22,571 bases of DNA. Origin: a virus. Position numbers and translations under genes: made by a program. Below the pieces are notes generated by a model that ran no database searches, was not told where the DNA came from, and saw nothing but the letters and a program-made list of their open reading frames with translations. Below, piece after piece: positions 5,079-14,757 of this stretch. How positions within the stretch are numbered: the first letter of the stretch is position 1; every line of letters begins with the position of its first letter. Location: the IMG/VR virus record IMGVR_UViG_3300031607_000023, positions 1 through 22,571 of that record. The stretch is one strand, 5' to 3'.

Positions 5079-5840
5079 ATGACAAAAGACCGCGAGGAAT
5101 GGCTCGTTGCAAACGTACCCGGCGTAAAGCGCGCGCGGGTTATAGGCGGCTGTGAGCTACTGCAGGGTAACTGCTTAGAGATTATGCCGGGGCTGGGGAC
5201 GGTTGACGCAGTTGTGACGGACGTTCCATACGGGATAAGCCAAAAATCAGGCGGTTTGCGGCGATTAGATTATGGAAAATGGGACGGCAAAACTGCAACA
5301 TCAGTAGCGTTGGCCGCTATGGCTGCGGTTGAAAACGTCCCAAGCGTTACTGCTTGGTGCGATTGGCGTCAACTATTAAAAATTGCTGAGGCTTTGCCCG
5401 GCCGATCTGAAAGACCTTTGACTTGGTCTAAGCCAAACCCGCCAGTCTTAAACGGGCAAAGGCTTTTTTTGTCCGCAACCGAACACGCATTTTATGGAAA
5501 AAAATCGGGCGCTTGGTTTTCTGGCGGATGCATAAAATCTTATTGGTTGGGGCCGCCACCGCCTGACAGGCAGCACCCAACTCAAAAGCCAGAATGGCTA
5601 ATGAAACAATGCGTTCAAGCGACCGTTTCTCCTACAAGCGTTTGCTTAGATCCATTCATGGGCAGCGGCACAACCCTAGTTGCGTGCGCTAAGCTAGGCC
5701 GCAAGGGCATAGGCATAGAGCTAGACCCTGAATACTTTGACATAGCCTGCAAGCGCGTAGAGGATGCGTACCGGCAAGCGGATCTGTTTGTAGAGCAGCC
5801 TGCATACGAGCCGCCAACGCAGGGCGGGTTTGAAATGTAG
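5079..5840 (+). CDS. Beta-class DNA amino-methyltransferase (N6-adenine or N4-cytosine)
   Basis: The protein has 253 residues. The catalytic motif IV comes first, as VVTDVPYGI with Asp48-Val49-Pro50-Tyr51, and the SAM-binding motif I comes near the C-terminus, as LDPFMGSGTTLVACAKLG at 190-207, with an adjoining GIGIELDPEYFDIA. The order IV then I marks the beta class (PF01555 type). HPTQKPEWLMKQ before motif I is also typical. It would transfer a methyl group from SAM to an exocyclic amino group in a specific site, probably protecting phage DNA from host restriction. No partner endonuclease is adjacent. The DVPY in place of the usual DPPY is unusual. Start: AAGGAG lies 12 bases before the ATG. 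Confidence 0.88.
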   Translation: MTKDREEWLVANVPGVKRARVIGGCELLQGNCLEIMPGLGTVDAVVTDVPYGISQKSGGLRRLDYGKWDGKTATSVALAAMAAVENVPSVTAWCDWRQLLKIAEALPGRSERPLTWSKPNPPVLNGQRLFLSATEHAFYGKKSGAWFSGGCIKSYWLGPPPPDRQHPTQKPEWLMKQCVQATVSPTSVCLDPFMGSGTTLVACAKLGRKGIGIELDPEYFDIACKRVEDAYRQADLFVEQPAYEPPTQGGFEM

Positions 5841-11555: not shown

Positions 11556-12041
11556 ATGGCATTTTATGAAAAGCAAGGTGAAACAGATGAATGGTACACG
11601 CCAGCTTATATTTTTGATGCTTTAGGTGTTTCATTTAATTTAGACGTAGCTTGCCCGCCAGAAGGCCCCCGCCACGTGCCTGCCGACAAATACTTTAGCG
11701 ATAAAGCGCTGGACCAGGAATGGTTTGGTATGGTGTGGATGAACCCACCATTTGGCCACCAGTCTACCAAGCGGCAATGGCTGGGAAAGTTTTTTAAACA
11801 TGGGTGTGGAATTGCATTGTTGCCTGACAGAACTTCTGCGCCGTGGTGGCAAGAGTTTGCTCCTTTGGCACACGCTATTTTGTTTGTCGCGCCTAAAATT
11901 AAGTTTGAGCGACCAGACGGAACGCGCGGCGAGCAACCAGGGACTGGGACCACTCTTTTTGCAGTAGGGCAACCCGCTACTGACGCATTAATCCAAGCGT
12001 CTTGTTTGGGACAATCATTTAGACCAATAACGCGCAAGTAA
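11556..12041 (+). CDS. Phage N6-adenine DNA methyltransferase (Dam type)
   Basis: The protein has 161 residues and matches the phage Dam family (PF05869-type): DEWYTPAYIFDALG at the N-terminus, NLDVACPPEG (SAM site region), and VWMNPPFGH with Asn63-Pro64-Pro65-Phe66 as the catalytic motif IV. The C-terminal strands include GIALLPDRTSAPWWQEF and FVAPKIKFERPDG. It would methylate adenine in short sites, probably GATC as in the family, and protect phage DNA from restriction or alter replication timing. GAGGGAGAT lies just upstream of the ATG. The gene is free-standing, with no endonuclease nearby. Confidence 0.88.
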   Translation: MAFYEKQGETDEWYTPAYIFDALGVSFNLDVACPPEGPRHVPADKYFSDKALDQEWFGMVWMNPPFGHQSTKRQWLGKFFKHGCGIALLPDRTSAPWWQEFAPLAHAILFVAPKIKFERPDGTRGEQPGTGTTLFAVGQPATDALIQASCLGQSFRPITRK

Positions 12042-12219: not shown

Positions 12220-12443
12220 CGCAAGCGGCCAACGATTTTCGGATATGGCAGGCAGGAAACTCGGTAAAGTGGGATTGTACGTTAGCTGAAATTGCGGAGG
12301 AGGTTAAATTAACCCCCGTTACTGTTTCTTCGACATGCAAGCGACGCGGTTGGAGAACAAACCAATTGCAACGTGCCAATGGCAGGCACGGCACGTATGG
12401 GGTTGATGTTGCGATGCGCACGCCACATGGTCTGACGCGATAG
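12201..12443 (+). CDS. Small helix-turn-helix protein, last early gene
   Basis: The protein has 80 residues. MHHKTITQAANDFRIWQAGN is followed by the HTH (CTLAEIAEEVKLTPVTVSST) and then CKRRGWRTNQLQRANGRHGT, a basic C-terminal arm. GGGGAAGG precedes the ATG at 9-10 bases. The HTH followed by R-R-G-W resembles the ends of the other HTH proteins in this region. It is the last gene before the 523-bp gene-free region with the strong promoter, so a role in switching to late transcription is possible but only inferred. Confidence 0.6.
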   Translation: MHHKTITQAANDFRIWQAGNSVKWDCTLAEIAEEVKLTPVTVSSTCKRRGWRTNQLQRANGRHGTYGVDVAMRTPHGLTR

Positions 12444-12447
12444 CCGC

Positions 12448-12475
12448 TTGACATAGGGCGCGAATAGAATATTAT
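12448..12475 (+). promoter_or_regulatory. Strong sigma70-like promoter
   Basis: TTGACA (12448-12453) is a perfect -35 element. TATTAT (12470-12475) matches the -10 consensus at five of six positions, with a 16-bp spacer. The predicted start is near 12482. It is the best promoter in the window and points to the terminase and head genes. Confidence 0.7.
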
Positions 12476-12486
12476 TTAGAGAATAC

Positions 12487-12524
12487 ACCCGGCCAGCCTC
12501 TCAACGATGCGCACCTGGCCGGGT
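12487..12524 (+). ncRNA. 5' hairpin of the late transcript or small RNA
   Basis: ACCCGGCCAG and CTGGCCGGGT pair perfectly over 10 bp with an 18-base loop. The stem begins about 5 bases after the expected transcription start. No T run follows, so termination is unlikely. It may stabilise the 5' end of the late message, act as an RNA-protein site, or belong to a small RNA. The type is a guess; only the fold is seen. Confidence 0.35.
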
Positions 12525-12534
12525 TACTACAATA

Positions 12535-12548
12535 CCGCCCTTTGGTGG
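12535..12548. repeat. CTTT-loop hairpin, copy 1
   Basis: CCGCC-CTTT-GGTGG can fold into 5 pairs including one G-T. A sister element, CTGCC-CTTT-GGCGG, lies at 12826-12839. The differing bases keep pairing in both. Confidence 0.3.
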
Positions 12549-12825
12549 GTAAAGGTAAACGTCAATTAGGTGCGGTCGCTCAAACCTCTTGACACTTTAT
12601 CCTCCTAAGCGCGTTGCTTAAACTATTGCGGCTATTCTCCCAAGGCCAAGCTAACAGCACACTCTGACTGGCGAGTATAGCCAGCGCACAGGCGGCGGAG
12701 GCGGGTTTTATCAGCCCTATCACCGCAGACGGGAAACGGCGTTACTTTCCTGGCGCATGGACCCGTTACCCACTTGATGCAAGCGCCGGAAGAGCGTAGC
12801 GTAGCGTCGTGGTGTAGGTTACAAG

Positions 12826-12839
12826 CTGCCCTTTGGCGG
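12826..12839. repeat. CTTT-loop hairpin, copy 2
   Basis: CTGCC-CTTT-GGCGG folds like the copy at 12535-12548. Its GCCCTT part could instead pair with AAGGGC at 12891-12896, crossing the 12838/12904 stem and giving a pseudoknot. Confidence 0.3.
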
Positions 12840-12966
12840 TGATTGTTTTTCTCAGCGACCAATTCTCACGAGTTGGCGTATGCCACCTGGAAGGGCGCAT
12901 CTTACAATCACCCCCTAACGGCACAGCGCTCTACTTGATACCAAGGCCAGATAGGCATACAATAGC

Positions 12967-13152
12967 ATGATGATATTCGAGCTGACAGATATGGATTTTG
13001 TGCGGTCGGCGATTTACAATGCGCTGGCTGAGGGCGTGTCTCTTGATGACGTTGGTCGCATGTCCCTCTATGCCGAGACACCAGAGGCGCTAGACGCAGC
13101 GGTTAACATTTTCATCCTGTCTATGCCAGAAGTTGAGCGAGTGCCAGAATGA
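12967..13152 (+). CDS. Small acidic protein before the terminase
   Basis: The protein has 61 residues: MMIFELTDMDFVRSAIYNAL, AEGVSLDDVGRMSLYAETPE, then ALDAAVNIFILSMPEVERVP and E. It is acidic and helical with no recognised motif. The ATG could be 12967 or 12970; no clear Shine-Dalgarno site is present. The stop overlaps the terminase small-subunit gene by ATGA, so translation of the two is coupled. It may be part of packaging, by position only. Confidence 0.6.
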   Translation: MMIFELTDMDFVRSAIYNALAEGVSLDDVGRMSLYAETPEALDAAVNIFILSMPEVERVPE

Positions 13153-13541
13153 GTGGTAGGCCGACCAAATACAATCCCAAGCATTGTAAAGCTGTAGTCC
13201 CGTACATGGAGCAGGGTTATAGTGTAACTGCATTTGCAGGATATCTGGGCGTATCGCGCTCAACCGTCTATTTATGGATGGAAGAGCATCCAGAATTTTC
13301 GGACGCCATAAAGCAAGGTATGGCAGCAAGCGCAATATGGTGGGAGGACTGCCTGCGCAATGTAGCCCTTAAGGGAGAAGGCAATGCGACAGCAGCTATC
13401 TTTGGCCTTAAGAACCGCGTTGCTGATGATTGGCGGGATAAGCGCGAAGTTGACAACACGTCCAGCGATGGCAGCATGGCGACTAAGCCTAACGTGATTG
13501 AGTTTATATCGCCGCAGGTTAGTGATGAAAGCAACGATTGA
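13149..13541 (+). CDS. terS: Terminase small subunit
   Basis: The protein has 130 residues. It starts SGRPTKYNPKHCKAVVPYME, contains a helix-turn-helix (SVTAFAGYLGVSRSTVYLWM), then EEHPEFSDAIKQGMAASAIW and NATAAIFGLKNRVADDWRDK, the usual layout of small terminase subunits that bind the packaging site and direct the large subunit. The C-terminal tail (SDGSMATKPNVIEFISPQVS) is the likely partner-binding end. The gene overlaps the large subunit gene by 17 bases. Its position after the 523-bp gap fits a nearby cos or pac site. Confidence 0.88.
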   Translation: MSGRPTKYNPKHCKAVVPYMEQGYSVTAFAGYLGVSRSTVYLWMEEHPEFSDAIKQGMAASAIWWEDCLRNVALKGEGNATAAIFGLKNRVADDWRDKREVDNTSSDGSMATKPNVIEFISPQVSDESND

Positions 13542-14757
13542 AGAAATACCCAAGATCACTGCTAACTTCGCCAAGCCAGCTAGAACGCGGGTATTCAAGG
13601 GCGGTAGAGGCGGTGGCCGCACAACGGGGCTTGCGAAGAGGTCTGCCCTACGTGTTTTCCAACTGGCGGAAATGGGCGTCGAGGGTGTATTCCTAGCATC
13701 GCGCGAACACCTCAACAGCCTAGACGAAAGCAGCATGGAGGAAATCAAGGCGGCCATTCGGTCTGAGCCGTGGTTGCTTGCATATTTTGACGTTGGCGAA
13801 AAATACATCCGCACTAAGAACCGCCGTATATCGTATGCCTTTGCTGGCCTGCGACATAACCTCGACAGCATCAAGTCTAAGGCACGCATCATTGGCAACT
13901 GGACCGATGAAGCGGAAAGCGTGTCAGACGTTGCATGGCGCAAGCTAATCCCAACGATCCGTCAAGAAGGCGACGGGTGGACCGCAGAGAACTGGGTAAG
14001 CTACAACCCCGAGAGCGCCGAAAGCGCCACGCACCGGCGGTTTATAGATGGCGGCGGGGATGATTGCATCGTTACTGACCTGTCGTGGCAGGATAACCCG
14101 TGGTTCCCTGACATCCTAAACAAGCAGCGGCTTGAGGATAAACGGCTTCGCGCCGATACCTATGACCACGTATGGGAGGGCGGGTTCCTTACCATTACGG
14201 AAGCCCAAATATTCAAGGGCAAATATGAGCTACTTGAATTCAAGCCTGGGCATAATTGGGATGGCCCGTATCAAGGCGTTGACTTCGGCTTTGCGCAAGA
14301 TCCGACAGCGGCCAGCAGAGTCTGGATCTATGACCGCAAGCTATGGGTCGAGTATGAGGCGGGCAAGGTCGGGCTGGAATTAGACGACACAGCCGACTTT
14401 ATCTGCGACCGCATACCAGACTTCGCCGCGTATGTTTCACGGGCCGACAGCGCGCGCCCAGAGAGTATCAGCTACCTTAAGCGCCACGGCCTGGCCCGAA
14501 TGGCGAGCGTAAAGAAATGGCCGGGCAGCGTTGAAGACGGCATATCGTTCATGAAATCGTTTGAGCGAATTGTCATTCATCCTCGCTGCACTAGCACCGC
14601 GCGCGAATTTAGGTTATATAGTTACAAGGTTGATCGCAATTCAGGGGATATCATGCCCATAATTGTTGATGCGAACAATCACTACATTGATGAAATTCGG
14701 TACGCACTTGCGCCGATGATCCAAGCCAAGACGGCGCCACGAATAAGGACGCTCTAA
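13525..14757 (+). CDS. terL: Terminase large subunit (PBSX/Terminase_3 type)
   Basis: The start at ATG 13525 gives 410 residues; a longer upstream start would add nine. The ATPase part has a Walker A-like FKGGRGGGRTTGLAKR at 24-39, with Arg32 at the invariant lysine position, and ARIIGNWTDEAESVSD as the Walker B-type strand with DEAE. The C-terminal nuclease has Asp in YQGVDFGFAQDPTA, Asp in YVSRADSARPESI and Asp in HYIDEIRYALAP. It powers DNA entry into the prohead and cuts concatemers. The nuclease residues are all there; the Walker A replacement is unusual. It overlaps terS and is followed after one base by the portal gene. Confidence 0.92.
   Translation: MKATIEEIPKITANFAKPARTRVFKGGRGGGRTTGLAKRSALRVFQLAEMGVEGVFLASREHLNSLDESSMEEIKAAIRSEPWLLAYFDVGEKYIRTKNRRISYAFAGLRHNLDSIKSKARIIGNWTDEAESVSDVAWRKLIPTIRQEGDGWTAENWVSYNPESAESATHRRFIDGGGDDCIVTDLSWQDNPWFPDILNKQRLEDKRLRADTYDHVWEGGFLTITEAQIFKGKYELLEFKPGHNWDGPYQGVDFGFAQDPTAASRVWIYDRKLWVEYEAGKVGLELDDTADFICDRIPDFAAYVSRADSARPESISYLKRHGLARMASVKKWPGSVEDGISFMKSFERIVIHPRCTSTAREFRLYSYKVDRNSGDIMPIIVDANNHYIDEIRYALAPMIQAKTAPRIRTL

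Follow-up and report, generated by a model that had tools for sequence, protein, structure and literature searches.

AbiF (Abi_2/AbiD/F), the HEPN ribonuclease of an abortive-infection system, is held to be the protein from which type VI (Cas13) CRISPR descends. The C. difficile antitoxin RNA RCd22, which contains two abiF motifs, binds AbiF directly and thereby neutralizes it both in cis and in trans (PMC12373285), and the structure of a PbAbiF-RNA complex is available as 8VZ6 (PMC12737573). RNA mimicry by phages is already established: the pseudo-ToxI of phage PhiTE imitates the antitoxin RNA of a system that acts by abortive infection (PMC3475682), and RNA anti-CRISPRs (Racrs) are solitary defence RNA motifs, often located right after a promoter, that stand without effector genes (PMC10651486). 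An abiF small RNA has been reported in the lytic cyanophage S-CREM1, where it is also solitary, with no Abi_2 in the record; its authors did not propose an anti-AbiF function (PMC9964418), and a 2025 review regards its role as unconfirmed (PMC12197685). In the openly accessible literature searched, we found no paper proposing solitary abiF RNAs as AbiF inhibitors.

The locus analysed here lies in a stretch of 22,571 bp, hereafter the window, that makes up an entire IMG/VR virus record, and it carries a short hairpin that resembles the abiF RNA family RF03085 (AbiFr/RCd22) in its fold, its 15-nt core and a full-length match to the model. Unlike the operons of this family, it has no abiF gene after the RNA and no terminator 3' of it. 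It differs from PhiTE in the toxin family concerned, which there is ToxN, and in wild-type PhiTE the locus gains activity only through expansion of its repeats (PMC3475682). Racrs mimic CRISPR repeats instead, and the survey that described them found none for type VI (Cas13) (PMC10651486). The S-CREM1 RNA, in contrast to that of the window, is situated in a tRNA cluster.

The hairpin is found in the longest gap on the window's gene map, a 523-bp interval (12444-12966) between an ORF ending at 12443 and another starting at 12967. The second-longest gap is 239 bp, so the initial annotation was right to call this the only long one. It had also credited the gap with the best promoter in the window, and indeed no promoter-like site other than the predicted promoter reaches 11 of 12 matches, where Markov sequences of equal size average 0.2. 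Likewise confirmed was the perfect 10-bp hairpin reported just behind the expected start: its arms, ACCCGGCCAG and CTGGCCGGGT, begin 5-6 nt past that start and form the only perfect stem of at least 10 bp with a loop of 3-20 nt in the window (chance, 0.2). The ~440 nt that follow are free of genes on the map, and the terminase genes lie downstream, as had been described.

Table 1 Features of the gap and of the genes following it, in window coordinates.
Feature	Position	Strand	Evidence or remark
Predicted sigma-70 promoter, TTGACA-16-TATTAT	12448..12475	+	11/12 matches; expected start near 12482
abiF-type hairpin RNA, 10-bp stem, 18-nt loop	12487..12524	+	RF03085; z -4.1
Conserved core GCCTCTCAACGATGC	12496..12510	+	Identical to family consensus and bacterial AbiF antitoxin RNAs
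Rest of gap	12525..12966	+	Gene-free; nothing reaches an Rfam family cut-off
Second promoter-like site, TTGATA-17-TACAAT	12935..12963	+	10/12 matches; directly ahead of first late ORF
61-aa ORF, no family	12967..13152	+	First late ORF
Terminase small subunit, terS	13149..13541	+	phrog_309, E 2.3e-31
Terminase large subunit, terL	13498..14757	+	Terminase_3 / Terminase_3C

At the curated Rfam cut-offs the window yielded no match. With an E-value threshold, Rfam's own RF03085 model aligned to the hairpin over its full length (model positions 1-37) with 30.5 bits; the E-value was 0.0023 for 801 bp and 1.5e-5 for the whole record. This score is under the gathering score of 37 bits, which is a curation threshold and not a defining feature of abiF RNA. 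In the alignment all 15 contiguous core bases (GCCUCUCAACGAUGC) match the consensus. The same core is present in the antitoxin hairpin of a bacterial locus (L207) whose AbiF protein matches chain A of PDB 8VZ6 with 613.6 bits across 300 residues. Counted from the predicted start, the first 49 nt fold with z = -4.1.

The window hairpin departs from the RF03085 members at two points, its stem being longer (an uninterrupted 10 bp) and the pair adjoining the core being A.G, where most members of the family have a Watson-Crick pair. The minimum-energy fold is the long stem in place of the family's inner helix of three pairs beside the core. A purine-purine pair also occurs beside genuine toxins: G.A adjoins the core, together with a similar stem, in 5 of 67 AbiF operons. 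Among the Coriobacteriia operons with a purine-purine pair, the RNA of L232 scores 29.6 bits and those of L236, L243 and L312 do not appear in the match list, and the window hairpin thus scores above the RNAs of four genuine AbiF operons of similar stem subtype. Phage contig L420, in which no Abi_2 was detected, has the same A.G form on a stem (CCCTCAG/CTGAGGG) that differs from that of the window (CCCGGCCAG/CTGGCCGGG) yet is complementary. The sub-threshold score could suggest a resemblance by chance, which we consider very improbable: by chance the window would hold the 15-nt core only 6e-5 times, and the core falls together with the sole perfect 10-bp stem and the best promoter, at a spacing as in AbiF operons. 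The -10 element ends 21 nt ahead of the core; among bacterial AbiF operons whose -10 can be recognized, a distance of 19-23 nt is the commonest. Taken together, the hairpin at 12487-12524 is, judged by its sequence, an abiF RNA (RF03085). A T-run directly 3' of the hairpin, seen in 58 of 66 AbiF operons, is missing at this place in the window, so that the transcript would either undergo processing or continue into the late operon.

We then compared loci of this RNA in bacteria and viruses. Bacterial genomes and virus contigs were each searched for the exact-core pattern GCCTCTCAACGATGCNCA; at least 120 stretches matched in each set, and 120 of each served as samples. An AbiF profile was built from 39 ORFs adjoining bacterial hairpins, two of which were confirmed as Pfam Abi_2. 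Among the matches listed, an AbiF ORF was present at 70 of the 120 bacterial loci, nearly always overlapping the hairpin or directly after it, and at none of the 120 viral loci (Fisher p 8e-28). When entire records were searched with Pfam Abi_2, none was found in the window's record, in those of the 120 viral loci listed, which can be fragments, or in the full records of 12 annotated phages. AbiF is not missing from virus collections, since 129 AbiF-coding viral stretches were recovered, and this cannot explain the absence of the toxin at viral core loci. The exact core was detected in 2 of the best 80 of these stretches, indicating that our method is able to see the RNA-toxin pair, and a near match to the core just upstream of AbiF in 5 of the best 80.

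Overall, a recognizable abiF core within about 250 bp upstream was observed in only 7 of the best 80 AbiF-bearing viral contigs (L340-L419), and the existence of other classes of AbiF antitoxin RNA is therefore probable. Conversely, eight Bacteroidales loci (L204, L206, L214, L235, L248, L313, L314 and L317) have textbook abiF RNAs and no AbiF gene found downstream, and the ORFs next to them share no common family. Such loci may hold stand-alone chromosomal antitoxins, belong to prophages, have decayed or involve a different effector.

Solitary abiF RNAs recur in phages of many kinds. Scores above the RF03085 cut-off were obtained in the T7-like Aeromonas phages PZL-Ah8, PT2 and T7-Ah, in Rhizobium phage RHEph21 and Salicola phage CGphi29, in mycobacteriophages Thibault and Schatzie, and in cyanophages S-CREM1 and S-SZBM1; Rhizobium phage Pasto has only a match below the cut-off (30.3 bits). 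BLAST matches in Caulobacter phage RW and Pseudanabaena phage Pan2 were set aside as they had no Rfam confirmation. In the annotated phages the RNAs are located between structural genes, within tRNA clusters or ahead of terminases. Among the matches listed, a tRNA gene lies within 30 bp at 37 of 109 distinct viral loci, compared with 1 of 119 bacterial loci, and abiF RNAs thus seem to be carried along within tRNA clusters of phages. The tRNA-adjoining viral RNAs include L005, L008 and L012 as well as those of S-CREM1 and S-SZBM1 (L326, L331).

The gene after the RNA is variable among the viral loci listed (L002-L121), the commonest being an HNH endonuclease. An HNH gene next to a solitary abiF RNA is reminiscent of the homing endonucleases that amplify anti-defence loci (PMC13096335). 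In Mycobacterium phage Thibault, a sub-threshold match to DUF3800-IV RNA (L333, 3881-3962; 42.9 bits) adjoins a tRNA in the genome region that also holds the abiF RNA.

Across these loci the RNA shows signs of being maintained. The core-flanking pair is Watson-Crick in 110 of the 120 viral loci listed and takes the forms TA, CG, AT and GC, that is, it covaries. An outer stem of at least 6 bp is formed by 79 of 101 distinct viral hairpins, compared with 25% when 5' and 3' flanks were mixed between phages; removal of duplicates was the only correction for kinship in this count. The covarying pair and the maintained stems indicate that the solitary phage RNAs appear to be kept as RNAs. The same data bear on whether the window hairpin is a functionless remnant of a complete AbiF system that lost its toxin gene. 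A core identical to that of AbiF antitoxins, with the toxin gene absent, would fit such decay. However, no AbiF remnant was found in any of the six frames of the gap, which dismisses an AbiF pseudogene there, or elsewhere in the window; the toxin ORF is absent from all 120 viral loci listed; and solitary copies with covarying stems persist across many phages, including compact T7-like ones. We therefore regard a remnant as quite unlikely. With no Abi_2 and no remnant in its record, the window locus is not an AbiF toxin-antitoxin system.

The position of the hairpin ahead of the terminase genes called for closer comparison. In the window, in CGphi29 and in contig G053 the abiF RNA lies 0.8-1.5 kb ahead of terL, and at several other viral loci a terminase follows within 2.5 kb. 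CGphi29 (HQ634153; L325, 2643-3449) shares the window's architecture: an abiF RNA of 50.1 bits lies in a gap of ~800 bp that immediately precedes terS (phrog_309) and terL, with no similarity between the two gaps outside the hairpin. Such an arrangement, with the hairpin just past the promoter and ~640 bp ahead of terS on the same strand, would suit the 5' part of a structured late-mRNA leader acting in cis, for example in antitermination or in the stability of the terminase operon. This is unlikely, however, because in other, unrelated phages the RNA is found beside tRNA, HNH, capsid and scaffold genes as well as terminases, because the window's relatives with terL up to 88% identical have no abiF RNA, and because the sequence of its loop matches an antitoxin RNA that binds protein. 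Packaging sites are often upstream of terS in such phages, and the gap, possibly with the hairpin, could be a cos/pac site recognized by terS; its location and its weak repeats agree with this. As a role for the hairpin a packaging signal is made unlikely by the varied neighbours and by the absence from the terL relatives, and since members of the hairpin family also occur in AbiF operons of bacteria and, in other phages, at a distance from terminases, we consider the cos/pac reading, as far as it concerns the hairpin, very improbable. Of the three readings offered by the initial annotation, the independent small RNA is thus the best supported, through the RF03085 match; as functions of the hairpin the late leader lacks support and the packaging site is unlikely. 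The same hairpin beside varied genes, missing from close terL relatives, is the pattern of an accessory trans-acting RNA rather than of a terminase cis element.

It is quite probable that this phage carries an abiF RNA as an antitoxin mimic, comparable to pseudo-ToxI and the Racrs, that would block AbiF abortive infection. The window has an RNA resembling the antitoxin and lacks the toxin, as expected of a mimic; the RNA family identity, the toxin absence and the recurrence of the solitary state were computed here, the activity of abiF RNA in trans is published (PMC12373285), and expression during infection, an AbiF in the host and inhibition by the window's copy are inferred. The solitary RNA would be transcribed from its own predicted promoter, with a start about 6 nt ahead of the hairpin. 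In an infected cell with an AbiF system, the phage RNA would be made and would fold like the antitoxin AbiFr. It could then bind free or newly released AbiF, and the bound RNase would stay off, so that abortive infection would fail. The relatives of the window's capsid include phages of Alphaproteobacteria, and AbiF operons with an abiF RNA were identified in Alphaproteobacteria (L223, L228, L255, L266, L279 and L321).

A related effect is said, going by the title of a report by Rince et al. from 2000 (cited in PMC12737573), to exist in lactococcal phages, a region of phage sk1 protecting phage 712 from AbiF. We found no recognizable abiF RNA in phages sk1 and 712, and the sk1 protection of 712 is therefore not explained by an abiF RNA.

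More generally, it is fairly likely that solitary abiF RNAs are widespread, unrecognized RNA inhibitors of AbiF ("RNA anti-Abi") that phages infecting many different hosts have each picked up on their own, in many cases within tRNA clusters, and that amount to the RNA anti-CRISPR trick aimed at the ancestor of Cas13. If so, phages would commonly disarm AbiF by an RNA of ~40 nt that is invisible to gene callers, and roles for phage small RNAs of unknown function would be explained. It would also help to predict which phages overcome AbiF-positive strains, provide evidence for an antiphage role of AbiF in nature and add the AbiF/Cas13 lineage to ToxIN and CRISPR as systems subject to RNA mimicry. 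This reading of the solitary RNAs is open to direct testing in isolated Aeromonas, Rhizobium and mycobacteriophages.

The remaining ~440 nt of the gap contain weak repeats only, with no Rfam match reaching any family cut-off in 12525-12966, and outside the hairpin showed no similarity to the terL relatives. The entire 485-nt leader is not more folded than shuffled sequences (z = -1.15); a large structured RNA spanning the whole gap was rejected on this ground and for want of an Rfam family. A CRISPR-DR57 match at 12531-12566 (13.7 bits, E 9.5) was dismissed as noise. This part is possibly a transcribed leader of the late operon, a packaging site or both. In the gap region, promoter-like sites with 9/12 matches are no more frequent than expected by chance. 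If the first late ORF were transcribed from the weak second promoter-like site (12935-12963), it would be leaderless, since the expected start coincides with its ATGATG. Portal, protease and capsid genes follow terL, and the window also encodes two DNA methyltransferases (5079-5840 and 11556-12041; phrog_67 and Dam/phrog_111), which possibly protect it from restriction.
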